From Branchiostoma floridae (lineage: Eukaryota > Chordata > Leptocardii > Amphioxiformes > Branchiostomatidae), in assembly GCF_000003815.2 (NCBI RefSeq), contig NC_049989.1:20932024-20996023 (forward strand): 64,000 nucleotides of DNA. The letters run 5' to 3'. Shown here piece after piece: positions 12,901 to 44,102 of this stretch. The notes below the pieces were generated by a model. The model did no database searches and had not been told where the DNA came from. It saw nothing but the letters and a program-made list of their open reading frames with translations. Made by a program: the position numbers and the translations under genes. The stretch's first letter is position 1. Each line of letters begins with the position of its first letter.

Positions 12901-15900
12901 GAAGTATGATTCAGTACCAGTCTGCAGTTTTAATGTTTCTCATCGTGCCAAAATAGCCAAAATGTGAAGGGGGGTGAATAATTTTGCATGCAACTGTATA
13001 TTATACAGACTGTGTGTGTCGAACAAATTTATCTCAAGTAGCTATTTCAGAATGAGATAACGATGTATACACGAAAAGTTGGTTCAAGCATCAGTGACAG
13101 CCGATGCTAGACTATGTGTTAATAGCATATCCTCCAATATTCATTTTCAGTGTGTATATAGGAAGATCTGGATATTTGCAGTACTTTTACAGAGGGTCAG
13201 AGTCAGTATGTGGGTCACGTATCCCTTTTGTGTGACTAACGCTGCAGTAGTGAATCATACCCGAGGCTTATGTTAAACACAGCCATGTTCGCTTGCTGGT
13301 CTATTTGAACCTGAATCATACCTAGTGGGGTATTGTATTTAACAGACGTGCATGTACACGTAATGTATGGTACTGACACCTGTTAATCTGGTGTTAATTG
13401 CTGTTTCTGACATCATCCAAAAGATTCTTATATGAGCAGATGTTATGATACAAAATTTATGTATTGAATATTTGTCATTTTTCTTGTGTAGATGGTGATT
13501 GTAACATATCACGTATTGGAAAAACACATATCATAAGTTTGGAAAATAGAATAAGCTTTTCTATTTTAACCTGTTGCTGTGTGGTAATGTACAACGTACT
13601 GTACCATTTCTACATATCAATCAGTGCAAAATGCTGTTCTTGTCAATGACATGAGCAATTTACTAGTGCTGAAATTTCATGAAAACATCTTTCTGTTGCT
13701 GCACTTATCAAGCAAAAACAGGAAATTGAGTCTTTGATTCATTTCTGTTGGAAGCAGGTCTGGCTAAATGCCATGATTGTAAATCCATCAGCAGAGCTAG
13801 TATGGGGAGTATGTGTAGGGAATTAAGTCATAACTTACACCCAAACAATTTCTGTTCTCTGGAGTGATGTTGCTGTAAAATTAGATAGATTTTCTGAATG
13901 CCAAGTGTCATTCAAAATCCCAAACAAACAGTGTATTTTATACTTTGTTGCTAAACAATTAATTTTCTTGGTTGTCAGAAATTTTAGAATAAAACTTACA
14001 CAAAGGGACAAGTTTAACTTACAGGTCACGTAAAGTACCCTTACATGATCAGTCGCATGACAGGATTTCAACCCAGGGTTTGGAGAAAAACACCCCGCAG
14101 TTACTCTACACAAAGCCATACTAATTTGATGTAGTAGTAGTAGTAGTAATAGTATCCATTTTTGATTACTGCTGCTTGGGTCCCTGACACAGGGGTAGGC
14201 AGCAGTCAGCTAGTCTTCACACCACGCTTTCATACGGCTCTGTCCAGTGGGTCCACCCATTAGGCCGCACACCTTGATGTCTCTCCTAACACACTCCATC
14301 CAAGTTTCTCTATGTAGGCCTAACGTTATCCCACATTTGTGTGTTCCAGTCTGATCCTGATGCAGCCCAACTTTGACTGGGTGGACTTCTGGACGCTGCT
14401 GTGGGTGGTGGGCATGACGGACTTCGTGATCAAGTTCATGAGCATGGCTGTCAAGTGCCTTATAGTGCTGCTGCCCAGGGGGATCATGCACTTCAAGAGA
14501 AGGGTGAGCTTTCTTTCCGAGTGTTTTTCTTTTCTTTTTCAGTCATTGTGGCGAATCATCATCTTTGTGTGAAGATTTGCATATTGTAATTGAAAAGAGG
14601 CTTCACATTTTTTCGTAACTATCAAGAGCTAAATTGTCAAAATTGCCATCTTTCAAAAGTTTGAGATGAAAAGGGCTTAAAATGTCCAATTTAGGACTGC
14701 AGCTCTTTCTAGTAGCATATTCAGTGATGTCCTGTATTACAAGTGGTGAATTTAATACATAGACTGCATCACACATAAACCCTACAGACATATATGTATG
14801 TCCAGCACAAAGTGCAAATTTTAAGATGAAATTCGATGATGAATAACAGAGATTCATTCAACTGGATGTGTTCATAAATATAGAATACAACACGGTGTAT
14901 TCCGTATCACCCGAGGTATCAGCCTGACCGCGGGTCGGATCGCCCGACGGCCGAAGGCCGGAGGGTGATCCGACCTGCGGGAGGTCTGAGACCGAGGGTG
15001 ATGCGGAATACACCGTGTTGTATTTTATTTATGTCATACCCACCTGAGAAAACCCATGTTTTGATGCAAAATGCACCAGAAGTTGAACAAATTTGGTGCC
15101 CTTGAACCAAAAGTGTTGCAACAGCAATGTTCCAACGTCCGAATCAGGTATTCGAACTTTCGATGGCGCCGTACTCGGCCCACTCGAAACAGTTTGATTT
15201 ACTCAAATGGAGCCTGTGTGATAAGCCCGGGCCGTATGGAAATTTATCAGCCGGTCCGGGACACCCATATCGAACGTTTTCGCGTCACAGGTATGACATA
15301 AATGGTCATACGCTTCAGGAACCACCCAAACCTCTCCTCATTGACTGAGGAAAGGCTCACAGTAGATGCTACATGTACTGCAGTCTCTGATGAAAGGTAT
15401 TGGATGTTGGGTAAAACATCTGACTGTTTCCAAGATCCATCCAGTTGCTTTAGTGAATCGTCTTGCATCATCTTGTAATCTTACCTAGATGTCCAACTTG
15501 GATGTGTCTTATGATCATGAATCTAATACTGATACTAACACTGTTCTCATCTCCTACAGGGTAAATACTACATGTTTGTGGAGCATCTAGCCCAGTCCTA
15601 CCCAGTCTCACCCCCATGTTGTACTAACAGTGTTCTCTCTCCCTAACCCTGTAGGGTAAATACTACATGTTTGTGGAGCATCTAGCCCAGTCCTACCACA
15701 GTCTCACCCCCATGTTGTACTAACAGTGTTCTCTCTCTCTCTCTCCCTAACCCTATAGGGTAAATACTACATGTTTGTGGAGCATCTAGCCCAGTCCTAC
15801 CGCAGTCTCACCCCCATGTTGTACTAACAGTGTTCTCTCTCTCTCTCTCCCTAACCCTGTAGGGTAAATACTACATGTTTGTGGAGCATCTAGCCCAGTA

Positions 15901-18900
15901 CTACCGCAGCCTCACCCCCATGTTGTACTAACAGTGTTCTCTCTCTCTCTCTCTCCCTAACCCTGTAGGGTAAATACTACATGTTTGTGGAGCATCTAGC
16001 CCAGTCCTACCGCAGTCTCACCCCCATGTTGTACTAACAGTGTTCTCTCTCTCTCTCTCTCTCTCTAACCCTGTAGGGTAAGTACTACATGTTTGTGGAG
16101 CATCTAGCCCAGTCCTACCGCAGTCTCACCCCCATGTTGTACTAACAGTGTTCTCTCTCTCTCTCTCTCTCTCTAACCCTGTAGGGTAAGTACTACATGT
16201 TTGTGGAGCATCTAGCCCAGTCCTACCGCAGTCTCACCCCCATGTTGTACTAACAGTGTTCTCTCTCTCTCTCTCTCCCTAACCCTGTAGGGTAAGTACT
16301 ACATGTTTGTGGAGCATCTAGCCCAGTCCTACCCAGTCTCACCCCCATGTTGTACTAACCGTGTTCTCTCTCTCTCTCTCCCAAACCCTATAGGGTAAAT
16401 ACTACATGTTTGTGGAGCATCTACATGTAGCCCAGTCCTACCCAGTCTCACCCCCATGTTGTACTAACAGTGTTCTCTCTCTCTCTCTCTCCCTAACCCT
16501 GCAGGGTAAGTACTACATGTTTGTGGAGCATCTAGCGCAGTCCTACCGCAGTCTCACCCCGATGCCGGTCTGGTACAAGTTTCTCTCCGACAGCGACCAC
16601 TCGGGAGGACCTGTCCTTGCCTTCCTCCTCACAGCAAGCTACTTTGTACTCAAGGTATGTCATTGTAGTAGTAGTAGTATTCATTATTTGATTAAACTGC
16701 CGATGGGATCCCTGACACAGGGGTAGGCAGTAGTCGGCTAGTCCTCACACTGCTCTTTCATGTGGCTCTGCCCTGCGGGTTCACCCCTGTTAGACCGCAC
16801 ACCTTGATGTTCCTCCTAACACATTCCATCTGGACAGGATTTTCTTGGCCTACCTGATCCCTGTTGCCTGACAATTTCAATTTGGTAATGGTGTTGATGC
16901 AGTCACTAAGATCTTTTAACATGTCCGAAATCAAGTTGTTGATAAGAGAATTTCAAAATAAACTATACTCAACTGCAAGTTCAAGGTGAAAACAGTCTGA
17001 GGGAAAGAATGTACCTTGGTACACATAGTTTTTGGGAGTGGATGAAGTCAGATTCGAGTCTTCCCCCAGCGGTCTGTTTTCATCGCGCTCGATGCTATCC
17101 AAGCAGAGTTGGCAGAATCTTTACTTAAGATGTCTCCTAAACAAAAAAAATGAATGGTTTGGCCTTATCAATTAGGCATCATTTCAAAATGAATCATTAC
17201 CAATAGAGAAATGATGGGGGTTACGGTCAATGAATCAGACCCTTCCTCTTCTATTCCCATCTAGATATCTTTTCCCAGATTTTCTATTCTAGAGTTGAGT
17301 ATATAGTGTGTTTCACTATTGAATATGAGACAAATAGTTCAGATTTTCAGTGTCATCAGCGATAAACATGATTTTCTTTGTAAGTAGGCCAAAACTGTTT
17401 CTCAAACCATGCCAGAACCAGAGAATGTGCTAGAGTGGCCCGAGTTTCTCCCGCTAGCTCTGATTGATTTAGCCTTCCTAATTCATCAAGATCGTCGTGT
17501 AAGACATCTCTGTACATCTCTGAACCAACAAAATGCATTGGACTGGCCTTAACATTTAGGCATCTTTCAAAATGAATCATTACCAATTGAGAAAAGATAT
17601 CAATGAATAAGAACTTTTGCCTTTCTTTCCTTTCACAAATTTTCTGCTCCAGAATTTGATTTCAATGCATAATGTGTATGTTGAGTATGAGACAAATATT
17701 TCAGATTGTTAGTGTCAGCGATAAACATGATTTTCTTAATACTGAGCCCAAAACAGGTTTTTAAACCATGCGAGAACCATAGAACTCGACTAGAGTGGCC
17801 CAAGGTTTCCCCGCTAGCTCCGATTGATTTAGCCTTCCTAATTCATCAAGATTGTCGCGTAAGACATCTCTGAACTAACAAAATTCATTGGACTGGCCTT
17901 AACAATTAGGCATTGTTTCAAAATGAATCATTACCAATTGAGAAAAGATATCAATGAATAAGAACTTTGATTTGTCTTTCTTTCCTTTCACAGATTTTCT
18001 GCTCTAAAATTCAATTTCAATGCATAATGTGTTCCAATGTTTAATATGAGACAAATATTTCAGATTGTTAGTGTTAGCGATAAACATAAAATTTTGCTTA
18101 ATAACCCCAAGCTGTTTCTCAAACAGAGAATGTGCTTGAGTGGCCCAAGTTTTCCCCGCTAGCTCGGATTGATTTAGCCTTCCTAATTCATCAAGATCGT
18201 CGTGTAAGACATCTCTGTACAGCTCTGAACCAACAAAATGCATTGGACTGGCCTTATTCATTAGGCATTGTTTCAAGATGAATCATTACCAAGAGACAAA
18301 AGATGTCAATGAATTAGAACTTTTGCCTTTCTTTCCTTTCACAGATTTTCTGTTCTGAATTCGATTTCAATGCATGTTCCGTGTTCCAAATTTCCAATTT
18401 TGAATATGAGACAAAATAATATTTCAGATTTTTAGTGTCAGCGATAAACATGATTTTCTTAATAATGAGACCAAAACAGGTTTTTAAACCATGCGAGAAC
18501 CATAGAACTCGACTAGAGTGGCCCAAGTTTTCCTCGCTAGCTCGGATTGATTTAGCCTTCCTAATTCATCAAGATGATGGTGTAAGATCCGTGGGCCGTG
18601 GCTATGAATATATAATGGGATGAGCCGACATGCTTGTACCAGATAAAGAATTAATTGGTGCATGTGTTTGGGTCGACTTGATGGGCTGAATCAACTGTGG
18701 AACGATGGTTTAGTTCCTGAATTATCCATAATGCAGGGAGCATGGAGGATGTAGGAAAGACATCTTTTATGTGTGTTGGTTCTTTTTTGGTTTCTGCAAA
18801 ATTGATAATAAAATGTGTGGAAAAATGAGAAAGTTTCAGCTTCTAGATTATTTGTGGAATGACAAACATAAATGGTGGTAGTCTTTCTTACTTTCTTTTG

Positions 18901-21900
18901 CATTGGTTCTGTTCTGTTTTGCTAAAGGTGATTGAAAAGATATTGAAAATCAATGAAATGAATTAATTTTAGATGAACAATGATTATTAGCATTTGAAGT
19001 ATGGTTCTCATATGAATGACATTAGTTGAATATAAGATAAAAACTAGGTTATAGGTAGTCTGTTCTTTTGGACATTTGGACATTTACCTGTTTTGCTGAA
19101 AAAAATAAGAAAGAAAATTGAGAAAGACGTTTCAAGAAAGAATGATGTTACATTAAAACAACCCATTCACACATCATAACAAGTGGGAATCCATTTGTAA
19201 AGCACACTAGTCAGTATGATCAGATAACAGATAAGTATGTCATGCATGTCTATGAAGGTTAGACATCCAGGCACAAAATGTACTGCAGTACGTAATACAA
19301 TTTGAATCAAGTAACTGCAGATGAATTTTCTGAAGATTTGACCGTTTTAGAGACCACTCACTGCCTTACAGTGGTGACTTAGAATGAAAAAGCATTCATT
19401 CTGAACCAGTTAAGACAAGATATACACATGTTAGTATAGGATATAGGAGAATTCTTTTTCACAACCAGTAGCTGCTTATGATTCGATGTCTCTGTGAAGC
19501 TCTGAGGAAGGTGTCTGAGAGACATTGAAACGTACATTTGTAAGCCAAGTAAGTACCTACTGGTTGAGAATTATTCTATATCCTATATTATACCAACCTG
19601 ATGAAATTATTTTCGGAAGATGTATGTATGTTGATGGAAACAGAAGTGACAATGTTAGATGTTACAGCACTTACATGCAGAACTGCAGGCTCATGTGATA
19701 CAGCAGAGCTATGAAATGTTGGTTATTACCATGAAATTATCTTCTGGCATGTCAGAAATCATTTTGTGGCTAAAAGGAGCTCTAGTATTTGTGCTATGAC
19801 TGCTATTTAGAATGTGTTTGATAATAGCTTTGTCAAGGTAATTTTGCTCATGATTATCATGTAATGAAAAATTAGTAGCCTGCTTTTCACATTTTCCTTG
19901 TTGCATTGTCTTATAAAAGATTGCTGCATTTCTATGGTACAAAATGAATTTACTGGTAAAGATTTGACAAGGCCACATGACTAAATGTCAATTATATGTC
20001 CATCAGATACAGAACTCTGTGTAATAACCAATTATCTTACTTGTACAGTATATAGTGAGACACATTTTCAAAATTGGATAGAGCAACCTGGTAGATTGTT
20101 AATCTTATCAGGGTTCTAGCCAGGATTTTATTTGAGCGTAGTGGGAATGGCATGGTAGCGAAGCAACTATTCAGGAGATTGGTGTGGAAGGGGGGTCTTG
20201 GTCCTTCCATGGTGAGATTTGAAGCTGTAGAGTTAAAAGTTAGGATTTTGGGGTCAGTTTTGAGTGGCATATCATCTTTTTTCATTGTTCAGACATTGAT
20301 TAGTCATTGTTGAACAAGCAAATGACAGCAAAGCACCACTACACTAGTTAAAAATTAGCGCAGTGGCCCTTATTTTAGCATAGGGGTCACAAATATATGC
20401 GCAGTGGCCCACTATGCTAAAATGCACTAGCTAGAACCCTGACTTTAAGTTATGTAACACAAAATACAACAAAATGTAGGTCAACGAACTACATACATTT
20501 TCTAAAGAGTTGGATGTTTCAGATCGTTTATTATATTATTGCACTAGATTCCCTTTGATCTATTATTGTAAAAAAAAGAATTGCGGAGATCTTAAAATCA
20601 GTTTGACCTAATGGCAATAAGATTTTTAAAAATCTCCATACAAAATGATAAATCATCTTACACATTTTTGGAAAAGTAGGGCATTTTTTGATGTTCCATA
20701 TTTTATTTTGTTACTTCTGGGAAGGAGTATTGTGGTTGGTCATGTGTGTACATTTGTAGCTATAAATTAGTATAATCATGGTTATAGTCAAAATCCCTTT
20801 TCTGTATTTTGGCCGGTCGGTCTCTATTTACATGTGTAAGATGACACATGACGTTGTCATTTTTTACACCTTAGCTGTTTGATATTGGTAATTTAATATT
20901 TCAGAAAATACATGTTGTACCCTTTTCTTCATGGCATTGTGGAACAGGTACATGTAGTTGTTACTGTTGACTTTTGTGGGTCAAGCAGATGTTGGGTTCT
21001 GTGTTGTCTAATGTTTTGTTTTGTTTGCAGACGTTGGGGCTGTGGAACAAAGCGAAGCAGGTCCGACAAGCGTGGCTGAAGGTGGTGCGAGACACGGTGA
21101 GAGTTTTGTTTCCCTGCTTATTCATTATTCATGCCACACGTCTCGCCTCACGCCACTGTGCTACTGTAAATGCAGAAATGTTCGTGGTGGTCTTATGTTT
21201 GCAGTTTTTGTGTTGTCGTAAACTTAAAACCACCGCAAACATTTTCTGTGGCAGTAAGAGACTACGGTGAATGGTGCTACCGCAAAACTTATGTAAAACC
21301 ACCGCGAACAGTTCTTTTTTCCGCTACCGCGAAATTAAATCCCCGCAAACTTAAATGCATTTACAGTAGCCTCAGGCATGATGAAGCTCGACTCACGCCA
21401 CTGTGCTACTGTAAACGGAGAAATTTTCCCGTTGTTTCACTTTGCAAATTTACTGCAAACTTAAAATCACCGCAAGCATTTTTTGTATGGCCATAAGAGA
21501 TGTATACAGTGCATGGTGCTACCACGAACATAATACCACTGCGAACAGTCCTTTTTCCTGCTGTTGCGAAATTAAATCCCTGCATTTAAAAATGCATTTA
21601 CAGTAGTCTCAGTCATAATGGAGCTGCCTCTATCCGCTAGACACATGGGGGATACTGGTTGTCAGGTACATGGAACAAGGAGTATCATTTCGTAAAACTA
21701 TTATGTTCCACCTACATGTATATCTACAGTCGATTTTATCAGCTCCTTCGGCGGTCTTTTTGGGACAGTTTTGACTAATATTTTTTTGGCTGAACCAACA
21801 ACAGAGCATCAGAGCCCTTTTCTTATTCTGGAGATAAAGTCGCGCTGTTTGTTTTCAGATTGAGAATGATAGACTAAGTGTGTAATTGGAAGATGAAGAC

Positions 21901-24900
21901 AGAGCCTGAGGGGAATTCTGTACCTTATTGGTACACACAGTTTCGGGAGTGGACAGAGCCATGTAGGTATTCTTACCAGCAGTTTTTATCTTGATTAACC
22001 TCTTGCTAAATTTTGTTTACTAAAGTCTAAAGATAACGTGGAAACATTCAGTGACACACATCCTTTGTTGACCAGAATGAATACAGATAATGCAGCAATT
22101 ACTGAGTATTGGTTTCTTTTCTAAAAAAAAAAACATTAAAAGGCTCTTTTAGTCAATCATCTGTGTATGACTGAGTGTCAAAAATCACTGTTTGAATGGT
22201 TGAGACCAAACTGCTGACTTCCTGAGTAAACCCGGGTCACGACTACCAGGACTGTGTGGGTGGAGGTGGATTCAGCTCCATCTGTGGGATGGATGTCAAA
22301 TATCTCCCTCTCCTTTCTGTTTGCACTTTAAAGGATGAGACTGCATGGAAAGTATGAAGCTCACTCACATGCAATGTTTGATTATACTGCTGCTGGGATC
22401 CCTGACGCAGGGGTAGGCAGCAGTCGGCTAGTCTTCACAACCGATCCCCAAAACACATTCTGTTCAAGCCACCAGTCATTCTGACTTCATTCACTTTTTA
22501 GTTTCAGAAAAAATAACATGCTAAGTCTGAGGAGAAAGTCTAAAAACTTGAATCTGACTACCTCCACTCACTGAAACTGTGTATTAAGGTCCAGACTTTT
22601 CCTTTAGACACTGTTTTGACAGTTGTATGTATTTCAATCAGATTCCAGTTTAGTATCAGTTGTTGTCTTGAACCAAAAAATCAAATTGATATGGCCTATA
22701 CTACTACAACTATTAAACATGATAAAGATGTCATCATCGAAACTAAGCTTATAAGCAAAAAGCAACATCAATCCTGTTCATTAGAAAATGCTGAAGAATT
22801 GTTGTGAGTTATTGAAAATTGAATATTATATTTCACTGCAATATCAGGCCCAAATTCTAATTGCAAATGAAGTAAAACAGTGGTAAAAGACAAATGTAAT
22901 ACAGAGTTGTATAGGTAACAAAGAAGTAAAATTAAATATACATTGTATACTATATGAATTAAAAGGGAAAGGATATCAGCTCTAAGCTATTGGATTACTT
23001 CTTCAACTTTCTGATGAAATTTTACTTCAAAATTGTGGGAGAAGCCAGGATATACTGTAAATGCACCTAAGTTTGCAGGTATTTAATTATGCGATAGCGG
23101 GAAAAAGGACTGTTCGCGGTGGTTAAACTTTTAAGTTCGCGGTAGCACCATGCACTGTAGTCAATTATTGCCATGGAAAATTGTTCGCGATGGTTTTAAG
23201 TTCGCAGTTTATTTGGCAACGCGAAAATCGCGAATATAAAACCACTGCAAAATTTTCTGCATTTACAGTAAATGTATGTGGCCAGAGTAACCTGCCTGTA
23301 AACCCCGTAACCTGCACACGGTGCAGTTTTGGCTCATTAATTCCAGGCCCTTGGAGAAGGCTTTATTGACTGAGCATGACCAACAAACAAAATGAATATA
23401 TTATCCATTAAAATTTTCAGAAGAGGAATTGTTAAAAGAAGTCTTAGAATAGCAATAACTTTATTGCAAGATACACACATGTATAACCAAAGGCTTAAAC
23501 AAAGCAAAACAGTGGTATACTTCACAAAGAAGGAAAACAAAATATCATAATAATATATATACATGTAGATAGATTAAGGGGGAAATGACATCTACTCTAA
23601 TTTGTCTATTTCATCAGTAGCTGAAATTATTTGAATGCCTGAGAAGCCAGGATTCAAATCAACATGGTCTTGTAAAACCCCCTAACCTGCACACGGTGCA
23701 GTTTTGGCTCATTAATTCCAGCCCCTTGGAGAAGGCTTTATTGACTGCACCACAGCTAGCTGTTATATGCAGATTCAGGAGCGCTGCTACAGTTATCTCC
23801 CCGTCACAGGAGTCGCGTGCGGCACGCTTCGCCGTTGTTTTTCTCTCGTGCACATCTCACAACAATTTCCCCGGTGGATTGGCACGGCAGACTCAGGGCA
23901 GTTCTCTGGTCACCGTCATACTAAAAAGTGTCGTAAAAATCTGTCCTTTTTTTATGTAATCTCACATCATGGAGCCAGTATATCTTTATTGAAAATTTGG
24001 CGTGAAAATTGTCTGAAGGCCTAAGTCATAATTATGTTTTGGTTCCAGTAACATACTGTGAACTGGGGAAAACAACAGCAAAGCATGATACAACATGATA
24101 CAAATACAGTTAAAGAGTTAGAAGTATTTTGTTGCTTTTGTTACTTCTGTAAAGGAAAATTTTTCGAATTTTGAACCCTCTCTCTGCTGCTTAACCCCAT
24201 AACCAAAAGAGATTTGATAACAAGTGGCTTCCTTAGCAGACTGCAGGTTAAACATGTATTTTATCCCTTTATTACTCAATAGATATACTTACACTAACCC
24301 TCAAGGGGAGTCACAAACATTACCGTAAAATGACAGAGAATATCCTATTTCAGATGGATTTAAATATTATAACATGTACAATGTGCTCCTACAAAATGAT
24401 ATTACAGCATATCATTCTAAAGTTTATAATCATCTGTTTTATTCTTATTTGTCAAATTACCTTACTTGAATGTAATCCTACAAAGCATAAAAAGGTGTCA
24501 AGACGTTATGTATAATTAAGAATCATGGCTTTCTCTTAAGACAGGCTTAAGGAGTTGTTGGCACAGAAGGAAACCTGCTTTCCCTCCTTAAGATGATTTT
24601 GTAGTCGTTCCGGGCATATCAAGTTTCACCACCACCTTGAGGATAGTAAAAGCGTACTCAGGTCTGCAGAGGATCATGTTTCATGGCTCGTCCGACGGTT
24701 TCTATTTCGTACCGTCCATAAAAGAAAATGTGGTTCCCGCGGGGAGCGGAGAGAATTCTCAGATGGGTTATTGGAAATCTCATTATTCTCCACAGATAGT
24801 ACAAGTGGGCCGTGCCAATTCTGTTGGTTGCGTCTAGGTTCAAAATGAAAAAAAAATGTTAAGCTATAGACGAATATAATGATAATATTTGCAGGGATAA

Positions 24901-27900
24901 ACAAGTCCACTAGCCCTATTGTCCAGGGCAAGTGAAAGTGCTGTTCGGGCAAGTGCATGTCCTACCCCACTTGTCCGATCGGGCAAGTAAGATTTTTCCA
25001 TTGATTTTAGTGCAATTTTGATACTTGTTACTTTTTACAGTCATGACATCAAGCAATTGTCTACAGAGAATTCCATTGCTAGAAGTGAAAATGCATATAC
25101 TAGTAACAGTGACATTTGAATTTTGGGCAAGTGAAAAATTGGTTCGGGCAAGTACATTTTTTATGTGCTTGCCCAATAGGACAAGTGGATTTTAGAAAAC
25201 TTGTTCAACCCTGCATGTGTTTTGTATACTTCACAAAGAGGGAAAATAAAATATTAGATAAATCAAAGGGAAATGAATCTATTCTAATATTAGTCTACTT
25301 TAAATATTTGAAGGGTTTGATTTCTTTTCCGTATGCAATGGGAGATGAATTTGAGCTTTATTGTTCTCTGTTCAAAAGAAAAATGCTTAGCTTTAAAGAT
25401 TTGATTTTGTATTTGAACATTTTTTTACCTGGATGTCTAACCTTCATAAACATGCGTTTCTGGAATGAATACAGTCAAAGTCAAGTTTCTCTCCCAGCTC
25501 ACTGTTTTCCTCCTGACCTGTAATTACTGTACCGGTTCTATTTTTTGCTGTGAACCAAAACGACGGCTTGGTGTAGCCTGAAATAAACGTAGTGCCTTTA
25601 TGGAGCCGAACGTGTGCTTCAAAGCACTAGGGATGATTCCTGCCCATCTGTAGAGGTTAGGAAGATAAGAAACACAAGACTTCAAACCCAGGAAATCAAG
25701 ACTTAAGTGAGGAGTATTGATTACAGGGGATGGGCTCAAAATACCTAATTTTCTTCCACCTGAAAATAATTTGCTTGAACCACTGTGGCAGGGCTCAACA
25801 CATCTTTTGTTCTCCTACCTGAAATTATGCCAAAATTTTTATCAACAGTTACTACTCCAAAAATTATTATCTATGAAACCTAGCTTGCAATGTCCCAAGA
25901 TGATAATGCTTAGAACAAAAAGAAATATTTTAAAATTGAAAATTTGCAGCTACGTATATATATTGATATCCATATAGGAATTATAAGCTGTGCTGACAGC
26001 AATTTTGACTAGAATGTAAATGGGTAGTTGAGAACATCAGTCCTTGGATTTTTCAATGAGCAGTTTATACAATCTGATCTGAGTAAATAATGTAGGGAAT
26101 GGACCATGGCTTGGATGTTTGCAACTTTGGGTTATTTCAAATTACAAATTATTGAATCGACAACAATGTCATGTAGTATAAAGTATCACAGGCAACAGAA
26201 ACAGGCATTTGTATCCCTGGTATTTATTCCCTTATTGGGTCACATATGCGAGTATTGGTAAAGGTTTCCACCTGAATCCTGCAATCGTTTGCGTTGCTTT
26301 CATTTGCGGTGGTTTTTAAGTTCGCGGTGAAGTGGCCACCGCAAAAACCGCAAACATAAAACTGCTGCAAACGTTTCTGCATTTTACAGTATTTAGTCCC
26401 CTAATGGGTCACATATGCGAGTATTGGTAAAGGTTTCCATGTGAATCCCACGATCGTGTATCTCCGAGGGGAATCGAGATTTATGTGTTTAATGTTCTCT
26501 CATGGCACATCTCCGCATCAGGCTGGATTCTTCAGCTCTATTGATTTTTCTCTGGACTTATTCATTCGGCACTTGAGATGGCTCAACCTGGTGGATTCTT
26601 CTGCTGCAGGTTCTAGCCAGTGCATTTTAGCATAGTGGCCCACTACGCTATGATTTGCAACCACTACACTAAAATGAGGACCACCATGCTAATTTTCAAC
26701 TAGCGTAGTGGTACTTTGCTATCATTTACTTGCTGAAAAATGTCTAATTACATATGAAAAATGATGATATGCCACTCCAAACTGACCAAAAAGTCCTTCA
26801 AATTACATGTGATGTTAACAGGTTTACAGTAAGTCCCCTTACAGGTACATGTACCCTTATCATGCCAACGTTTTACTCTACATTTTCAAAATCTCACCAT
26901 GGAAGGGCCAAGACCCCCCTTCCCACCATCCCCCTAATTTGTTGTTCACTACCTTGCCATTACCACAGTACTACAGTAACGCTAAAATAAAGTCCTGGCT
27001 AGAACCCAGTTCTTTATTGATTTTTCTCTGGACTTATTCATTCTGCACTTGAGATGACTCAACAGGTGCCGTAAATTTCCCCCTCCCCCGCGTTCGGGAG
27101 CGCCGATTCGCACGTCGGCGATGACTTTGGAAGGGAGAAATACGTCCGGACAAATGGAAATGGACAGGCGGAGATGCGTGGTACATTTGCAGTCCCAGAT
27201 TTGCAGGCTGTCACGATGACTGCCGAGATAGAGGACAGAATTTATGTGGATGTTTTTTTCTGAAGTACAAGTACGAACCAGCTGCATACAAATGAGGAAG
27301 AAAATATCAGTCTGAGTAGATATTACATGTACCTCTTAATTAATGATTTTAAGGATTTAAAGGAAAGATTTGGTTGGTTACTTGATTAATTGCTTGCTTT
27401 TTTATTTATCTTGTTCTTTGTTTCTTTCGGAACAATTTATGGTTCATTAGTTGATAGTATACTCGGTTTCGATATTTACTTTCTATTATAAACTATATTT
27501 TTGTGAAATATGGTATTTTCATATATTAATCAAATACTGGATACTGCTAACTTTTTGCATATTATGTAATTTCAAACATGTATGATTGTAAGTGAAATAT
27601 ATTTTAGCCTCAAGGCTTTCAGGTTGCAAGCAAATAAACCATTCATTCATTCAACCAGTGTTTCTAGTGTATTGAATTGTTCTGCCAGTTCATTCTGAAG
27701 AAAAGTGATGGATGTCAATTGAAACGTCCAGAAGTAAATCTACAGCTTTTTTTCCACTTGTAGAGATTGATTTGTACTTGAATATTGACTACCTGGATGT
27801 CTAACCTTCATAAACGCATTCATCCATTCACTCATTCATTCAATCGTTCCCTCCTTCCCAGAACTACGGCCAGCCGGCGTCTCAGGATCAGGTGGTGGCA

Positions 27901-30900
27901 GCAGGGAACGTGTGCGCCATCTGCCAGGAGGACTTCAAGGGACCCATCTCACTACAGTGCAAGGTGAGGGCAACGTCTTAAGACAAAAGTGAAAGTGAAA
28001 CAAAAGTGAAAGTGATGTCGGGCCCATCTCACTACAGTGTAAGGTGAGGGACAACTTCTTAAGACAAAAGTGAAAGTAAAGCGAAAGCGATGTCAGGGCC
28101 CATTTCACTACAGTGTAAGACAGGGTTGTAGCCAGCATCCGTCCTTCAGTCCTTTGAAGGAATTTTGCAGCTGGGGACAGAAAAAAATTTTGCCCATTCC
28201 GTCCTCGGTAATGGACAAAAACTATGTAAAGTCAATAAAGATATAAAAAAATGTCTTCTTGTGTAATTTTTCACCAAAACAGATGAACAGCTTAGTCTAC
28301 CAGCAAACTTGACACCTCAAAATGCAGGACATTGGGTTTCAGGGGGTCTAGATTTCAAAATTTTTCAGGGGAGTATGACCCCGGATCCCCTTAGGAACGT
28401 TATGCCTTCGGCTCGACGTCTCGTTCTTTCTGATTCAAAATCGAGGGGACTGAAAATGATTTCAGGCTGGCTACAACCCTGGTGTAAGATGAGAAACATG
28501 TTCTTAAGACGTAGGTGAAAGCAAAACAAAAGTGAAAGTGAACAGTTGGGACCTATCTCACTACAGTGCAAGGTGAGGGCAACGTCTTAAGACAAAAGTG
28601 AAAGTGAAAGAAAAGTGAAAGTAATGTTGAGACCCATCTCACTACAGTGCAAGATGAGGGACATGTTCTTAAGATGAAAGTGAAAGTGAAAGCGGACAGT
28701 TGGACCCATCTCACTACAGTGCAAAGTGAGGAACAACTTCTTAAGACGAAAGTGAAAGTGAAGCAAAAGTGAAAGTGATGTCAAATCAGTTTTAACTGAA
28801 ATGAACTCTATCAGTTGAGGAACTCTTCCACTGATCATGACAGAGAAGACAGACTCTAAGTGCATGTAATATGTACAGGACCTGGTACATTGTCCCATAT
28901 TTTCTAATAGATGATAGATTGATTTGATGATCTCAGTTAGGAAGAGTATCTTTTGTGGGCTTTTTTTAACAATGAAAAGCCAATGGTGTGATTTCAGACA
29001 CTCTTTCAAATAGTCTGTGTCTTTCACCATAGAATCTGAGACATTTACAAATATCCTCTCCATCCGCCACTACCAATGGCTGCCTCTTTGCAGTGCAATC
29101 CTCTATTCCCCTCCCCATCCATCCGCTTTATAAAAGCCTTTGTTTGATGACCCTTGTCCTTCGACCTGGCTGGGAAATAAATTGTGCCTGCTTAGTGTCG
29201 CTGGCAATCCGAGCGTTACGGCCGTAAGTGGTTAAATATGCCGCACTAATGGTACAAAATATCAATAAGGCTGGCTGGGCTAGCAGGGCAAGGTGCAGCG
29301 TTCCCTCGGGGGTTCCAACCTGGTTATGTGTGCTACTGGAAATTGTGAAATTTTCGTGGGAGTTTTATTTGCTCGTTTGCTCTGACCTCATACCATGAAA
29401 TTATGTCACGAAATACGTGTTTTTTTTTATCATTACTGATAGTAATCAATTTGTTTCAAATGCAAATTGAAAACATGGCAAGCTGTTGCTGCAAAATGCA
29501 TCAGCTGCAAAAGTAAATGTAGTTACAATGGCTGAAACACAGGGGTTAGGGAAGCTCTTACGGTATCAGTGTCGGGCATGTCCAAATCATTTCCTGGCTT
29601 CTCAGAATTTTAAAGAAAATTGTCAGAAGAAGGCACCATGAAAACACAGTGCATGGGGAAATTTTTTGGGGGAAACATTCTAGATAAAAACGGAGGTTAA
29701 GGCACAATTTACATTGTACGGAGTGCAAATGTAGGTATAATGTGGGTAAATAAGAATTTAGCAAGGAATGGAGGTAAAATCAGAGACCTCAGAGGAAAAC
29801 ATAAATCTGACTATATTCACCCCAAGAAACCAACCAACCAATTTAAGGTACACACTTTTCCCTCAGACTCTGTATTCATGTGGATCTTCCAGGTCAGCAT
29901 TAGTGTGTATTGTCAAGATATTTTTATCTTAAATTTTATGATATAGCTTACAGGCTGTGGGAGGAAAGCTTGAATCTGACTATATTCATCCCTGTATTAA
30001 TACCCTAAAACTGTGTGTACCGAGGTACAGACTTCCCCTCAGACTCGTTTTATGCAATTCTTCCTGTTCAGCTTCTTTGGCCTTTTTTTAATGCCGAGAA
30101 CCAACAAATAGAGTTGGAGAGGCCTAATCATGGGGTTACAGTCTGTGTTGTGCGATATTGACCAAAAATGGTCAGATTGAGATTGTCAATTGATTAATTT
30201 ATTGGTGGATGCCAACTCCTTGTGACATGGTTGTCTAAATTATTCATTCTATATGCTCATAATTATACATATAGATCTGGGTTCTCCCATTCCAGTGCCT
30301 TGGATTTCAGTTTGCAAATTCTGTGTAATGTTTACAAGGAAAATATTCATGTACTTAGAACAAAAATGTCGGATCCCAATATCAAAAGAAGTCAGGATCA
30401 GTTAGAGCTACCTTCTAAATTTTTGCTGCTAAAAAAAATTAGAAGTTACCTTTTGTTTTTATTAATGAAAAAAGGAATATTATATAGATCAATTTGTAAT
30501 TTTACACAATCTACATTTTTTGTACACTGTATGTAACTGTGAGTTGTTTTTCCTACCAATATGTTCATATCCCAGTAAATGCATGTAGGATCCCAATATC
30601 AATGAACAAGTCAGCAAGAGCTGTCTTTTAAATTTGTGCTTGTAAGAAAATTAGTCTTTTGTTTTCATTAATAAATGAAAAAAAGGAATATACTGTACAG
30701 ACCAACTTGTAATTTTACATTTTTGTGTTACAAATCTACATTTTCTGTTACAAATTTTGTACACCGTATTTATCTGTAACAAGTTGTTTTTCCTACCCAT
30801 ATGTTCATATCCCAGTAAATACATTTCCAACGAGCCCCATTAGTACTACTCTATGCAGGGCCATGAGGACATATTTCATTACGAGCCCCAATTGTGCAGA

Positions 30901-33900
30901 ACAGGAGCGTTTCATGGTTAATTTAGTCTGGCCGAAGGAGAAGGATCAGATCTGTATTGATTATGCCATGTAGGGCCACATGTAGTACGGGCAGGGAGAA
31001 TATGTACATGTTACAGTACATTCGTATGCTACAGCCTTGATTTTGCAGAACTAATAATGTGACATTTTGAACATTAATTGCTTGGAAACTGTTACAGTAG
31101 TAGTCATGCATGTTGCAGGCATGTGTACATCATTCAGGACATTGTACTATGAAATTGTAGTCTAATGTTAGAGTTATACATTTGCAAACCTGTATAAACA
31201 TAACATGATATCCATAATGTTCCATGCATGTGAATATCATTCAGTGCTTTGTAGTCAAATGAGGTATACATTTGCAAACATAAGTCATGTACTTTACTCC
31301 TGATGGTGAATATAAATCCATTCTTTTCTCTTTGTCATACCTTTATTATGTATAATGTCATCACCCTTCCAAGCACTTGTAGCTGATAAATGCATATCAA
31401 TCGATGTCACTGACAAAAGAAAACAGATCCTATCTGAAATGTCTGACCATTTCCAAAATCATATCCAGTTGCTTCAACTTGAGTAACTGCTTTTTGGCGT
31501 ATCTTATTACCTACATGTCTAATTATAACCTTCATCGACGTGTATCAATCGTTCTCAGTAAATGTATTCAGTACATTTCAGTGTGATGTGATGTGTAGTG
31601 ACATTATGCAGAAGTTCCCCACAGTGTGTGTGCTGTTTATATACAGCTGCTGCCATTTAAAGCGATTGCCTGGATGTAATAGCCTCTTGAGGTTTACAGC
31701 TTTGGGCCTCTCTAAATCAATTCTTTGTTTTGTTTATATTTTTGATGAGGAAAGCATGAAAGTGCATTAGCTATGATGTATGAAAAGGAAGAAAAAATGG
31801 CTACCATGTTCAAGTCAACAGTAAATGCACAATGGGTGCTCAATTGACTGTTATTTCTCAATTGTTGCTTTTCTTAAATTTATCTTATATTTTCTACACT
31901 TGTATTTAGATTAGCATTAGACAAGTGTAGTTAGGTGCAAGAGAGCTTAATTGTACAAGCCATGCAGGTTTCTCCCTTCCTCCAGCACTTTACTTTATTG
32001 TTATTGTTTTATGTGCAAAATAAACAAACAAATAAACAAAACAGAGTCTAGAGGGGAAAGTCTTGGTGCACAAAATTTATTTATTTATTTACTGTAATTC
32101 CTGATTTTTTCAATGTACTGTTATATATGTTCACGGTTTTCACGGTGACGACTGTAACGTGAACTTATCATTACTGATAACAAATAATTCACAGCCTTCT
32201 TTTATGTGCACTTGCTTTGACAGTGAACATTTAGTTCTGAGAACAAGTTAAATTTTCTCAGACCGTGAAAGTTTGGTACCGAGAAGACAAAGTGAATTAC
32301 AGTATTTGGTGCATACAGTTTCAGGTTCGCTCCCACAGGCAAATCTCAGCATTGATATGTGCTCCACAGAGTCCCATGTTCCACCCCTACCGTATATTCT
32401 CGAATAAAGTACGCACCCCAATTAAAGTACGCACCCCTGATTTTGGACAAGTCTTAGACAGATCTTTGGGACTGAAAGGTAAAATTGAAAAACTCAAATA
32501 AAGTACGCACCCCTTCTCCACCAATTTTCAACAGACCTTTAACTGGATATATTCAAATTTATGATGTTTTCCCCCGGTTATTTTGTATAAGATAACCTGG
32601 AGAATTGCCTACTGCAATTATAAAAATCACTGTGAACTGGTATTAGAAATCAGGAAAAACCAGTTGTACAAGTCAAAGTCACTAACTCAAAAGGATTGTA
32701 TGCGAATGCCAATCTTATGTAAATCATGTTTAGACAATTTCTTTGTTTCATGTTTAGACAACTACAAGACAACAACAATGTGCATGTTTTGAAAAATTAC
32801 TAGAAGTGTAGCTCCACCTTGCTTTATTTTAGGCTTTTTTTACCATTTCTCTGTGCAGTGACCTCAAATAAAGTACGCACCCCAACTTTGGCAACAACTT
32901 GTAGCACCTTTTCAATTTTGAAAAGTTAAAAAAGTGCGTACTTTATTCGAGAATTGTGCGAAATAAAGAAACAATTAAACAAACAAACAAACAGTCTGGG
33001 GAAAAGTCTGCAACTTGGTGCACAGTTTCAGGCAGGTTCCCACAGGGAAATCTCAGCATTAATACGTGCCCCACAGAGTCCCATGTTCCATCCTTATGTG
33101 CGAAATAAACAAATAAACAAACAAACAGAGTCTAGGGGAAAGTCTGCATCTTGGTGCACAGTTTCAAGTTCGCTCCTACAGGCAAATCTCAGCATTAATA
33201 TGGATGAATGAATGAATTTATTGCACAACAATCGCGCAGAGTACAATGTATTATCAACCAACAACAACTAATAGCTATACTGACAATAGTACTAAGAGAC
33301 TACATACAAAACAACAACAGAACATTATCGATACAGTACAGTTATCTATGAGACTCAGTAATCTGGTCTCGCATTTGAATACATATGTGCCCCACAGAGT
33401 CGCATGTTCCACCTAACGTGGTTAGTTACGGGGGACCATCTTTCACTGTCCACTACCCCTGCCCCCCCCCCTTCTCGCGCCTGATGGCACAAAGGGCGGT
33501 GCCCATCTCTGTTTCCTTAGCCCTGGGCCACACAACGCAATCACTACAGCAGGGGGCTACTACCCCTGCACAGGGTAACAAGTTCTCCCACATGTGGCAC
33601 AGTTTTACCTACTCTCACTGCAGTGTTGACAGTCGTTTGTTTTGAATTGAGAGGCTTAAAGGTTATAGTGTGATAAAAGTATAGACTGCAATTATGATCA
33701 TTTTTAGGTTTCAAAAACATAGTTGTTTGGAACATGTGTTATAGTTGTTTTATGTCTCTGTAGAATTATATGGCAACAAATGTAGAAACAACAGTGATTT
33801 TCAACATCAGTGATATTAGTATTAGTATAGCTAAACAATGGCATGACTTGTTAATCTGTATCTAGGTATGCAAATGTTTTGACAAGTAGGAAAAATACTA

Positions 33901-34302
33901 TTGATTGTATTATGTGAAACAGACGCCATTACTGCCCCATTTTGCTTTAATTCAAGTCCACAGATTTTTTGTCTTTCTTCCTTTTCAACAAATGGTCTGT
34001 GAGGGTTTCTCTACAAAAGCTGTGTCCAGGTCTAAATTGAGATGTTGTCTATTTGTTTGTTGCTTTTCAGCATGTGTTCTGCGAGGACTGTGTGCTGGTA
34101 TGGTTCAACTGTGAGAAGACCTGCTCGATGTTCGATGTTGTTATTTACTTGTTTGTTTGTTGTTTTTCAGCACGTGTTCTGTGAGGACTGTGTTCTGGTA
34201 TGGTTTGACCGTGAGAAGACCTGCCCGATGTGCCGTGCGGAGATCGCAGACGACCCGTTGTGGCGAGACGGCGCCACCAGTGCCTTCGTACAGCTCTACT
34301 GA
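3471..34302 (+). CDS. RNFT2: RNFT1/RNFT2-type RING finger and transmembrane E3 ubiquitin ligase, 8 coding exons, 413 aa
   Basis: Membrane-embedded RING E3 ligase; vertebrate RNFT1 acts in ER-associated protein turnover and RNFT2 in receptor turnover (family knowledge). Coding exons: 3471-3930, 4966-5042, 5978-6078, 14350-14503, 16505-16654, 21031-21096, 27862-27963, 34171-34302. All have GT-AG borders and compatible phases (1,0,2,0,0,0,0), giving 413 aa against about 435-445 in human. Layout: polar N-terminus (1-135), several hydrophobic segments (about 138-310), a linker helix, then a C-terminal C3HC4 RING: C354, C357, C369, H371, C374, C377, C388, C391. It ends GATSAFVQLY, like the vertebrate tail. 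In-frame stops at 3423 and 3447 precede ATG 3471, so the N-terminus is complete. It is probably the single pre-duplication counterpart of RNFT1 and RNFT2; the SPRING1 neighbour favours the RNFT2 label. Confidence 0.95.
4966..5042 (+). CDS. RNFT2: RNFT coding exon 3
   Basis: Pyrimidine-rich acceptor TTTTTTCTATTCCAG; donor GTAAAG at 5043. It encodes a hydrophobic stretch (ICILLGLFGTFI) and the family sequence SQVALK. Phase 1 in, phase 0 out. Confidence 0.93.
5425..5752. mobile_element. MITE, CAGGGCTCAAAAT terminus with GGTGCACC words
   Basis: Starts CAGGGCTCAAAATTCATT and ends TATTTCGAGCCCTG, inverted ends. The inside repeats GGTGCAC/GTGCACC at both margins. Flanking pentamers CTGTC and CTATC could be a decayed 5-bp target duplication. 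In RNFT intron 3. Confidence 0.7.
5978..6078 (+). CDS. RNFT2: RNFT coding exon 4
   Basis: Acceptor TTATTTCTTGCAG; donor GTGAGA at 6079. ERRSVKMLLWLVLFLTAN and the following ILIYY-type stretch form one membrane span ending FEEEKLQN. It leaves the frame in phase 2, which matches exon 5 (AG plus T gives Ser). Confidence 0.93.
6116..6230. mobile_element. partial MITE, CAGGGCTCGTGAC end with GGTCGCA words
   Basis: CAGGGCTCGTGACTGCGAC followed by GGTCGCAATGCGACC. Only the left end is clear; a right terminus was not found. Confidence 0.4.
7310..7425. mobile_element. partial MITE with GCTCCTAA words, GGAGCCCTG end
   Basis: GTGCTCCCAACC, GGTGCTCCTAAC and GCGCTCCTAAG occur in a row, then inverted as TTAGGAGTTAGGAGCGCC; it closes with CTGGAGCCCTG. 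The left terminus is missing. Confidence 0.45.
7834..8180. repeat. 39-bp minisatellite in RNFT intron 4
   Basis: About eight copies of a unit built on GGTGTTCAGCACCAAGGACA and GGTGTGTTTGTGTGTGGAT. The unit is 39 bp, divisible by three, so it leaves long open frames on both strands that are not genes. Confidence 0.92.
8805..9500. repeat. three diverged copies of an about 190-bp repeat
   Basis: TCAGATATCTTCTGCCAGGC followed by a conserved AT-rich segment (GGAAATATTGATGTATATGA) recurs from about 8811, 8993 and 9347. The second and third copies are separated by an inserted segment with GTTAGACATCCAGGTA (9108-9260). Confidence 0.7.
9971..10047. repeat. perfect 31-bp inverted repeat (hairpin)
   Basis: Arms 9971-10001 and 10017-10047 are exact reverse complements (starting TTTTATTTTCTTGTTTTGCT) around a 15-nt spacer. 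AT-rich; could be the end of a foldback element or a cruciform. No gene association beyond lying in RNFT intron 4. Confidence 0.85.
10759..11099. mobile_element. MITE, CAGGGCTCAAAAT terminus with GTGCAGGT words
   Basis: Inverted ends CAGGGCTCAAAATCCC and TATTTCGAGCCCTG. GTGCAGGT/ACCTGCAC words occur at both margins. Flanked by CAGAC on both sides, a likely 5-bp target duplication. Confidence 0.75.
12101..12413. mobile_element. MITE, same GTGCAGGT family, opposite orientation, 5-bp target duplication
   Basis: Inverted ends CAGGGCTCAAAACAC and GTATTTTGAGCCCTG, flanked by TGTAA on both sides. It shares interior sequence with 10759-11099 and 34340-34570. Confidence 0.8.
12558..12835. mobile_element. 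degenerate MITE with GGTGCATA words
   Basis: Starts CAGGGCTTCAATTTCATTAT; CAGGTGCATAG, TATGCACC-like and ATGCATCCAGTATT words near the far end resemble 5425-5752. The right terminus has decayed. Confidence 0.4.
14122..14310 (-). mobile_element. dispersed repeat, probable non-LTR 3' end with trinucleotide tail
   Basis: A run of GTA triplets, then CTGCTGCTTGGGTCCCTGAC and GGGGTAGGCAGCAGTC. The same order recurs at 16664-16835 and 22380-22470. The simple-repeat end suggests a retroposon in minus orientation. Confidence 0.55.
14350..14503 (+). CDS. RNFT2: RNFT coding exon 5
   Basis: Acceptor TTTGTGTGTTCCAG; donor GTGAGC at 14504. It encodes a MQPNFDWVDFWTLLWVVG segment, then a hydrophobic span (MTDFVIKFMSMAVKCLIVLL). 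Both align with vertebrate RNFT (DLLWVVGIADFVLKY region). Confidence 0.93.
14876..15032. repeat. foldback element, arms about 70 bp
   Basis: GAATACAACACGGTGTATTC at the left is mirrored by GGAATACACCGTGTTGTATT at the right; the GC-rich centre (GACGGCCGAAGGCCGG) is itself palindromic. Arms have diverged by several substitutions. Sequence to about 15310 may belong to the same element. Confidence 0.75.
15560..16504 (+). repeat. array of nine truncated exon 6 acceptor copies upstream of the true exon 6
   Basis: Acceptor-exon junctions at 15560, 15655, 15759, 15863, 15969, 16077, 16185, 16291 and 16394, then the real one at 16505 (period 95-111 bp). Each unit has a CT-rich tract, CTAACCCTGTAG or a variant, the first about 65 exon bases (TACTACATGTTTGTGGAG), then CATGTTGTACTAACAGTG. 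The TAA in TACTAA is in frame in most copies and lies in a perfect UACUAAC branch-point sequence serving the next unit. Copies at 15560, 16291 and 16394 carry a 2-nt loss that shifts frame. Confidence 0.97.
16505..16654 (+). CDS. RNFT2: RNFT coding exon 6 (true copy at the end of the acceptor array)
   Basis: The last of ten tandem copies of the acceptor edge and the only one that continues past ACCCCGATG into PVWYKFLSDSD, finishing TASYFVLK before the donor GTATGT at 16655. 150 nt, phase 0 in and out. It starts GKYYMFVEHL, matching the GKFYLVIEEL region of vertebrate RNFT. The first bases, G then GTAAGT, place a donor-like sequence one base after the acceptor. Confidence 0.94.
16664..16835 (-). 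mobile_element. second copy of the GTA-tailed dispersed repeat
   Basis: GTAGTAGTAGTAGTATTCAT then GATGGGATCCCTGACACAGG and GGCTAGTCCTCACACTG, closely matching 14122-14310. Begins 10 bp after the exon 6 donor. Confidence 0.55.
17140..18600. repeat. about 360-bp tandem repeat, roughly four copies, RNFT intron 6
   Basis: The marker CAGCGATAAACATGATTTTC recurs near 17355, 17717, 18076 and 18443, each followed by GATTGATTTAGCCTTCCTAA and GAATCATTACCAATTGAG. A partial copy begins at about 17140. Confidence 0.9.
20109..20441. mobile_element. MITE, CAGGGTTCTAGCCAGG termini, CCACTACGCTAAAAT word family (copy B)
   Basis: Inverted ends CAGGGTTCTAGCCAGG and CTAGCTAGAACCCTG. Interior GCGTAGTGG and CCACTATGCTAAAAT words; inverted relative to copies A and C. 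No target duplication recognised. Confidence 0.75.
21031..21096 (+). CDS. RNFT2: RNFT coding exon 7
   Basis: Acceptor TTTTGTTTGCAG; donor GTGAGA at 21097. 22 codons (TLGLWNKAKQ ... KVVRDT) form a basic amphipathic linker between the last membrane span and the RING. Phase 0 in and out. Confidence 0.88.
21141..21607. mobile_element. two tandem copies of the TACTGTAAATGC / TTCGCGGT MITE
   Basis: Each copy runs from CACTGTGCTACTGTAAA to ATGCATTTACAGTAG (about 21158-21370 and 21405-21607), with CCGCGAA / TTCGCGG-like words. The flank CTCACGCCACTGTGCTACTG is duplicated too, so element plus flank were duplicated together. Confidence 0.75.
22380..22470 (-). mobile_element. third, shorter copy of the same dispersed repeat
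   Basis: CTGCTGCTGGGATCCCTGAC and GGGGTAGGCAGCAGTCGG as in the other two copies, but lacking the triplet tail. Confidence 0.5.
23054..23272. mobile_element. TACTGTAAATGC MITE copy
   Basis: TATACTGTAAATGCACC at the left and TGCATTTACAGTAAATG at the right form inverted ends; GTTCGCGGTGGTT and AAGTTCGCGGTAGCACC lie inside. Related copies occur at 26290-26395 (partial) and 43697-43977. Confidence 0.75.
24892..25213. mobile_element. MITE with CGGGCAAGT words
   Basis: CAGGGATAAACAAGTCCACT at the left is mirrored by AAACTTGTTCAACCCTG at the right. GGGCAAGTGAAAGTG, CACTTGTCCGATCGGGC and GGGCAAGTACATT occur inside. A second, shorter copy lies at 46902-47040. Confidence 0.7.
26607..27008. mobile_element. 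MITE of the CCACTACGCTAAAAT family (copy C), flanked by a 50-bp direct duplication
   Basis: Ends CAGGTTCTAGCCAG and CTGGCTAGAACCC. Sequence TTGATTTTTCTCTGGACTTA continuing through GAGATGGCTCAAC lies on the left (26539-26587) and again on the right (27016-27064) with two differences. That is much longer than a normal target duplication. Confidence 0.7.
27400..27655 (+). mobile_element. LINE-type 3' end with CATTCATTC tail
   Basis: AT-rich sequence ending CAAGGCTTTCAGGTTGCAAG, AAATAAACC and (ATTC)n is typical of CR1/L2-like 3' termini. No reverse transcriptase segment is present, so it is heavily 5'-truncated. Confidence 0.5.
27862..27963 (+). CDS. RNFT2: RNFT coding exon 8 (RING first half)
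   Basis: Acceptor CTCCTTCCCAG; donor GTGAGG at 27964. It encodes NYGQPAS and then the RING start CAIC, with the third Cys in SLQCK. The last about 18 coding bases, the donor and about 60 intron bases are repeated five more times downstream. Confidence 0.95.
27945..28783 (+). repeat. array of exon 8 donor-edge copies (six units, one interrupted by a MITE)
   Basis: The unit is CCCATCTCACTACAGTGCAA, then GTGAGGG, TTCTTAAGAC and AAAGTGAAAGTGAA runs, about 75-80 bp. Units begin near 27949 (true exon end), 28021, 28098, 28550, 28632 and 28704. The donor stays intact at 28021 and 28550 (AAGGTGAGG), is altered at 28704 (AAAGTGAGG) and is lost at 28632 (AAGATGAGG). Confidence 0.95.
28121..28481. mobile_element. 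hAT-like MITE with 8-bp target duplication inside the exon 8 array
   Basis: Inverted ends CAGGGTTGTAGCCAGC and GGCTGGCTACAACCCTG, flanked by GTGTAAGA on both sides (28113-28120, 28482-28489). GTCCTT/CGTCCTC words are inside. The target was the exon 8 copy sequence CAGTGTAAGA, so insertion came after array expansion. Confidence 0.9.
31855..32050 (+). mobile_element. probable LINE 3' UTR tail
   Basis: Ends TTTTATGTGCAAAATAAACAAACAAATAAAC after an unremarkable AT-rich stretch. The simple A-rich end is the main evidence. Confidence 0.35.
32396..32954. mobile_element. MITE with ATTCTCGAATAAAGTACGCAC inverted ends
   Basis: The left end ATTCTCGAATAAAGTACGCA is mirrored by TGCGTACTTTATTCGAGAAT. The word AAAGTACGCACCCC is present four times inside. 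It is inserted between CCACCCCTAC and TGTGCGAAATA; the neighbouring unit shows CCATCCTTATGTGCGAAATA uninterrupted, the empty site. Confidence 0.85.
33201..33383 (-). mobile_element. 5'-truncated LINE 3' end, minus orientation
   Basis: On the minus strand it ends GTTGTGCAATAAATTCATTC, a CR1/L2-like tail. Flanked by ATATG on both sides, splitting a unit of the 135-bp repeat whose uninterrupted form is seen next to it. Confidence 0.65.
34041..34230 (+). repeat. 100-bp tandem duplication of the exon 9 acceptor edge
   Basis: Acceptors TTGCTTTTCAG|CATGTGTTCTG (34071) and TTGTTTTTCAG|CACGTGTTCTG (34171) are exactly 100 bp apart. The upstream copy holds about 70 exon bases, reads HVFCEDC then WFNCEKTC and stops matching before the last RING cysteine. 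If used, it would end at TGA 34182-34184. Confidence 0.95.
34171..34302 (+). CDS. RNFT2: RNFT coding exon 9 (RING second half and stop)
   Basis: Acceptor TTTGTTGTTTTTCAG. It encodes HVFCEDC, VWFDREKTCPMC and the C-terminal GATSAFVQLY, stop TGA 34300-34302. An incomplete copy of its first about 70 bases with its own acceptor lies exactly 100 bp upstream at 34071. Confidence 0.96.
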   Translation, partial: HVFCEDCVLVWFDREKTCPMCRAEIADDPLWRDGATSAFVQLY

Positions 34303-43696: not shown

Positions 43697-43977
43697 GGCT
43701 ACTGTAAATGCATTTAAGTTCGCGGGGATTTAATTTCGCGGTAGCGGGAAAAGGGACTTTTCGCGGTGGTTTTAAGTTCGCGGTAACACCATAGGCTGCA
43801 GTCTTATACTATAATGGAAAAATGTTCGCGGTGGTTTTAAGTTCGCGGTAACACCATAGGCTGCAGTCTTATACTATAATGGAAAAATGTTCGCGGTGGT
43901 TTTAAGTTCGCGGTAAAGTGGTCACCGCGAAAACCGCGAACATTAATCCACCGCGAACATTTCAGTATTTATTATAG
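43697..43977. mobile_element. TACTGTAAATGC MITE with internal 66-bp duplication
   Basis: CTACTGTAAATGCATTTAAG begins the copy. The segment AAGTTCGCGGTAACACCATA through AATGTTCGCGGTGGTTTT is present twice in tandem. It ends 6 bp before an open frame and about 115 bp before the LRR exon acceptor. Confidence 0.75.
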
Positions 43978-44102
43978 TTTCTTTGAAAAGTTGTTGCCAT
44001 AAATGCTTTACAGAATTTCAAAGGCAGCACGAATTGGATAGAAGTTTCAAACTCATTCTAGGCCCTAATACTTTCATACTTTATTTTTGCAGGGAGGACA
44101 AT

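Follow-up and report, generated by a model that had tools for sequence, protein, structure and literature searches.

Truncated tandem copies of splice-site edges at three exons of an amphioxus RNFT-like gene, probably mirage minisatellites

Three coding exons of an RNFT-like gene of Branchiostoma floridae, which lies in the window that we analysed (a single stretch of DNA of 64,000 nucleotides), are accompanied by truncated copies of their own splice-site edges, so that 15 decoy splice borders stand beside the three real ones. The original prediction that three exons of this gene carry such tandem copies was borne out by TRF, BLAST and the gene model. The particulars held as well: nine acceptor-edge copies were found before coding exon 5, five donor-edge copies after coding exon 7 and one acceptor-edge copy before coding exon 8 (referred to below as arrays A, B and C; these exons had been numbered 6, 8 and 9, and are 5, 7 and 8 in the present model), and all copies are direct and cut off inside the exon, with units of 72-111 bp where a period of about 75-110 bp had been given. 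The best explanation, to which we assign a probability of roughly 0.8, is that these are three separate mirage minisatellites, produced by ordinary local tandem duplication, then altered by unequal exchange, and tolerated as by-products.

The exons of the gene (Table 1) were placed with an approximate human RNFT1 query, and we take the gene to be an RNFT on the basis of that query and of the layout of the protein, the Pfam matches being to RING families only (RING domains at residues 352-396). When the eight coding exons are joined, the frame extends over 1242 nt and encodes 413 aa with no stop inside it. The seven introns all have GT-AG ends, giving 14 splice sites, and a frame that stays intact when the real exons are joined agrees with regular splicing. 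Elsewhere in the window we noted a 39-bp palindrome, nearly perfect, whose arms are 97% complementary and separated by a single base (9970-10048), as well as an open frame of 705 codons that resembles a leucine-rich-repeat receptor (43947-46061; Pfam LRR, with LRR proteins as the closest solved chains) and includes a 96-bp tandem repeat (45048-45236). Another frame of 174 codons (46122-46643), for which there was no Pfam match, looks by eye like the terminal part of a polyprotein from a non-LTR retrotransposon.

Table 1. Positions in the window of the RNFT-like gene, its splice-edge arrays and the element inserted in array B.
Feature	Position	Strand	Remarks
RNFT-like gene, 8 coding exons, 413 aa	3471..34302	+	Open frame through all junctions; GT-AG introns; Pfam RING
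Coding exons 1-4	3471-3930, 4966-5042, 5978-6078, 14350-14503	+	
Coding exons 5-8	16505-16654, 21031-21096, 27862-27963, 34171-34302	+	
Array A, nine truncated acceptor-edge copies of exon 5	15530..16504	+	
Array A, exon-like starts of copies 1-9	15560, 15655, 15759, 15863, 15969, 16077, 16185, 16291, 16394	+	
Real coding exon 5	16505..16654	+	Last copy of array A; sole copy continuous with the full exon and the donor
Only open decoy, acceptor 9 to real donor	16394..16654	+	261 nt, in frame, +37 residues
Real coding exon 7	27862..27963	+	Exon end serves as copy 1 of array B
Array B, five donor-edge copies of exon 7	28011..28782	+	
Array B, copies	28023, 28099 (split), 28552, 28633, 28705	+	
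Presumed hAT-like miniature element, 361 bp	28121..28481	.	Inside the array B copy at 28099
Array C, one acceptor-edge copy of exon 8	34052..34151	+	
Real last coding exon 8	34171..34302	+	Second RING half; stop

TRF reported array A at 15553-16564 with a period of 108, array C at 34052-34231 with a period of 100, and part of array B at 28626-28762 with a period of 72. In BLAST searches with 60 bp on either side of each junction (E up to 0.01), junction-crossing direct copies were recovered at exactly 3 of the 14 splice sites, where the unit of a tandem direct repeat extends across the exon-intron border, and the other 11 sites yielded no such copies. The functional copy is terminal in every array, last for the acceptors and first for the donor, because of the geometry of half-exon duplication.

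Array A presents ten AG/GGTAARTACTACATG sites at a spacing of 95-111 bp, and its unit consists of an ACTAAC branch-like motif, a CT-rich tract, the AG and about 57-60 bp of exon, at which point copies 1-9 end within the 150-bp exon 5 and only the tenth goes on. The copies are 87-100% identical and therefore share more than chance similarity, with copy 1 the most diverged (87-90%) and the remaining ones mostly at 93-100%. A 6-base insertion lengthens copy 9, copies 1, 8 and 9 have each suffered a 1-base deletion, and single copies also carry replacements; units 6 and 7 are identical, leaving eight distinct sequences among the nine decoy units. Similarity drops with distance along the array (Mantel r 0.47, P 0.0012, 10 copies), also when copy 1 is omitted (r 0.38, P 0.03). 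Compared to the majority of the copies, the real exon 5 differs at 3 of 57 sites, and all three differences are synonymous (P 0.01). The exon-like part of array C begins at 34071, 100 bp upstream of the real one at 34171, and differs from real exon 8 by three replacements and four silent changes in 60 bp: it encodes N, C and S at the positions of residues D, R and P, is devoid of the RING proline, and loses the following cysteine at its cut-off. Judged by these substitutions, constraint appears to act on the real exons but not on their copies.

Two donors of array B, those after 28043 and 28572, are intact, and 3/5 are damaged: the GT is lost in the split copy and in the one after 28653, and the G at -1 is lost after 28725 (donor scores were based on primate base frequencies and are a rough yardstick only). 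This damage does not exceed the general divergence of the array, either over all columns (3/15 core cells versus 69/371 elsewhere, P 0.55) or without the unreliable leading columns (3/15 versus 29/311, P 0.17), and there is therefore no clear selection against the decoys. Within the array B copies, divergence is somewhat lower in exonic than in intronic sequence (5/105 versus 27/221, P 0.045), a difference that drift alone does not predict and that counts against a plain-drift view. When the alignment is inspected by eye, copy 4 resembles copy 1, copy 5 resembles copy 3 and copy 6 resembles copy 2, a pattern that suggests turnover in blocks.

The insert that splits the copy at 28099 has perfect terminal inverted repeats of 16 bp and is flanked on both sides by GTGTAAGA (8 bp); that copy of array B therefore predates the insertion. 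We take the insert to be hAT-like from the lengths of its terminal repeats and target duplication. Related terminal repeats are located at 20109-20123 (+), 20427-20441 (-) and 26995-27009 (-), which suggests that a family of such elements resides in the RNFT introns. The insert and its target duplication, confined to one copy, together with the distinctness of eight of the nine array A decoy units, also argue against an assembly artefact in which collapsed or expanded haplotypes created the arrays or their copy number. Two gaps of 100 N are present in the window (58645-58744 and 61250-61349), and the mirage BflGb6 was reported in the consulted sections of the globin paper to be aberrantly assembled in a draft genome (PMC3087553), but in light of the individual character of the RNFT copies we consider an artefact very improbable.

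On the basis of these patterns, we propose that at each of the three exons a short stretch chancing to span the exon-intron border would have been duplicated in tandem, probably through slippage or microhomology repair, routes suggested by short matches between intron and exon partners at the breakpoints (GATGT in array C and GAnnTCAA in array B, seen by eye and without statistics; by eye, the match in array A is weak). Two of the three arrays would then have grown through unequal exchange between copies, since the similarity of neighbours in array A and the likenesses within array B are the usual mark of such exchange in minisatellites. The whole exon is continuous with the terminal copy alone, which would explain why the resulting arrays were tolerated; from these by-products new isoforms or introns could arise.

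How would the splicing machinery deal with the decoys? All nine decoys of array A retain the ACTAAC motif and the AG, and pyrimidines occupy 13-14 of 17 positions at all ten acceptors (14 at the real site); the real exon 5 acceptor is CAG, as is that of copy 1, versus TAG in 8/9 decoys. As far as can be judged from sequence, local signals would hardly separate the real acceptor from the decoys. When each acceptor decoy is extended as far as the genuine donor of exon 5, a stop is encountered in 8/9; the one exception is copy 9, whose open frame predicts a hypothetical isoform with 37 additional residues from the acceptor at 16394. Because the acceptor signals are kept and a donor-like AGG/GTAAGT occurs in four of the ten copies (real exon included), the copies could conceivably form decoy exons 96-112 nt long, a point against the view that they are simply ignored. 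Such pseudo-exons, extending from acceptor k to the GTAARTA of copy k+1, contain an in-frame stop in 7/9 cases and shift the frame in the remaining two. Read in this manner, the decoys look inert or harmful. The likeliest reason that RNFT works would be exon definition, a decoy being half an exon without a partner splice site: the machinery should pass over the decoys and pick the terminal copy that is joined to the full exon and to the opposite site.

The same features could be read as selected splicing control, in which the decoys compete with the real sites, act as poison exons or supply the +37-residue isoform and thereby tune RNFT output: signals are kept by all acceptor decoys, every pseudo-exon either has a stop or changes the frame, and acceptor 9 is open to the real donor. 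Yet kept motifs say little in copies that, apart from copy 1, are mostly 93-100% alike, and the damage to three of the five donor decoys and the decay of the exon 8 copy speak against a maintained function. Moreover, published mirages are apparently spliced regularly despite their repeats, as suggested by Adh3 data and globin RT-PCR in the consulted sections of PMC3087553, and we regard selected control as quite improbable. The copies of array A might also act as ratchet points for recursive splicing of the intron before exon 5, the acceptor AG abutting a donor-like GGTAARTAC in each copy, but this intron measures only 2.0 kb (14504-16504) and we give the idea next to no credence. A ratchet point needs AG/GT, and the AG/G/GTAAGT found here is one base off, with an extra G per step that breaks the frame; the copies were thus rejected as recursive splice sites.

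The original prediction had further held that three arrays in one gene point to a shared mechanism acting at the borders or to selection on splicing control. The copies are real, but neither inference follows from placement tests, which reveal weak enrichment at best. Local direct repeats cover 6.3, 7.6, 8.5, 8.8 and 13.8% of the gene span when the paired repeats are at most 150, 250, 400, 600 and 1500 bp apart, respectively. With the splice sites shifted round the gene, at least three hits are obtained with P 0.059, 0.109, 0.140, 0.154 and 0.309 at these distances. Random placement of the merged arrays, of which 3/6, 3/9, 3/9, 3/9 and 3/10 cross a splice site, gives P 0.013, 0.042, 0.069, 0.102 and 0.226. 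When flanking bases are demanded on the 1500-bp set, P is 0.33 for 10 bases, and for 20 bases only 2/14 sites count (P 0.54); shifting the sites round the whole window gives P 0.16-0.18 for at least three hits. A test with five arrays, four of them delimited by TRF and array B widened by hand to 27931-28782, yielded P 0.031, with four TRF rows of periods below 30 in the gene span left out (7751, 9995, 27983 and 30716). TRF also revealed two RNFT arrays that are wholly intronic, at 7835-8115 (39-bp period) and 17419-18587 (355-bp period), and tandem arrays are therefore not restricted to splice borders. Neither the placement tests nor the globin comparison below are clean, because the RNFT case was chosen for its striking look. 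An enrichment of local repeats at splice sites is possible and weak at best, the range of P following the definition of a repeat.

A different picture emerges from comparison with a rough rate for amphioxus globins, two duplicated borders in 15 genes that each have at least two introns according to the sections of the globin paper used here, against which 3/14 has a P of about 0.003-0.01. Three per gene is unusual by this measure, and clustering at the level of the gene is therefore possible. This excess is one reason to contemplate border-directed mutation, in which transcription, R-loops or co-transcriptional repair render the borders prone to duplication such that several are hit per gene; the five-array P of 0.031, the P of 0.013 at the tightest distance cut and the occurrence of the same kind of repeat in further amphioxus genes (consulted parts of PMC3087553 and PMC3902484) point in the same direction. 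Looser definitions (P 0.06-0.33 in the site tests, up to 0.23 in the array tests) do not, and neither do the two fully intronic arrays of the same gene or the selection of the case for its look; overall, we hold border-directed mutation to be unlikely. Equally doubtful to us is the bolder proposition that tandem duplication in this genome has its hotspots at exon-intron borders, such that individual genes accumulate several splice-edge minisatellites, and that RNFT bears a ladder of nine splice-competent acceptors, with 16394 giving an in-frame +37-residue isoform, as the birth of an isoform or intron in progress.

The placement tests make the coincidence of three arrays in one gene less telling than it appears. 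New in RNFT are the 15 decoys at three borders of one gene, a transposon by which one copy of array B can be dated in relative terms, and a single open decoy that predicts an isoform. At this locus nature has set up a test of spliceosomal choice among near-identical local signals, and the question whether introns or isoforms originate from splice-edge repeats can be addressed there too. A census of lancelet mirages appears worthwhile, as the loci in the consulted parts of the literature amount to a handful, each met while single genes or families were being annotated.

Our literature search, which covered few subscription journals, returned no paper on RNFT1 and amphioxus, and only two relevant lancelet papers on mirages (PMC3087553 and PMC3902484); border repeats are absent from the examined parts of PMC5802833 and PMC2206037. 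As far as the consulted sections of these two papers go, the term mirage was coined on amphioxus Adh3 for intron-exon borders duplicated in tandem, which also occur in the globins BflGb6 and BflGb9 and at other loci (PMC3087553), to which TnC was added by the authors of the PGBD5 study (PMC3902484). In lancelet PGBD5 itself, two border repeats are described, of 60 bp at exon 3 and 108 bp at exon 4, whose copy numbers depend on the assembly (2 or 7, and 3 or 6; PMC3902484, in part). Related models concern intron gain by tandem genomic duplication, with the potato RdRp case (PMC4974935) and the Rogers model, the latter as related by the globin paper (PMC3087553), again as given in the parts consulted.

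With the intron-gain model, to the extent that the consulted text describes it, RNFT shares tandem duplication with splice signals inside a gene, but no new intron or exon is evident and the RNFT copies stay within existing introns. Tandem exon duplication likewise places copies of coding sequence beside an exon; the RNFT copies, however, carry one border rather than both and are cut inside the exon, and this class was rejected. PGBD5, as far as the consulted sections describe it, resembles RNFT in having several border repeats per gene, with a 108-bp unit similar to that of array A, although it has two arrays versus three in RNFT. The match with mirages as described in the same sections is close: direct tandem border repeats on the acceptor or donor side, minisatellite units, concerted evolution, and AG or GT kept in many copies. 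Published mirage units measure 10-72 bp in Adh3 and 150-160 bp in the globins (PMC3087553, in part), and the RNFT units of 72-111 bp fall between these values. Concerted evolution of the mirage type, edge copies excluded, is seen in array A and suggested by eye in array B, array C being a single copy. RNFT departs from the mirages in these sections in that three borders of a single gene are affected, with as many as nine decoys at one of them. It is thus a further, unusually rich case of the known amphioxus mirages, not a new kind.
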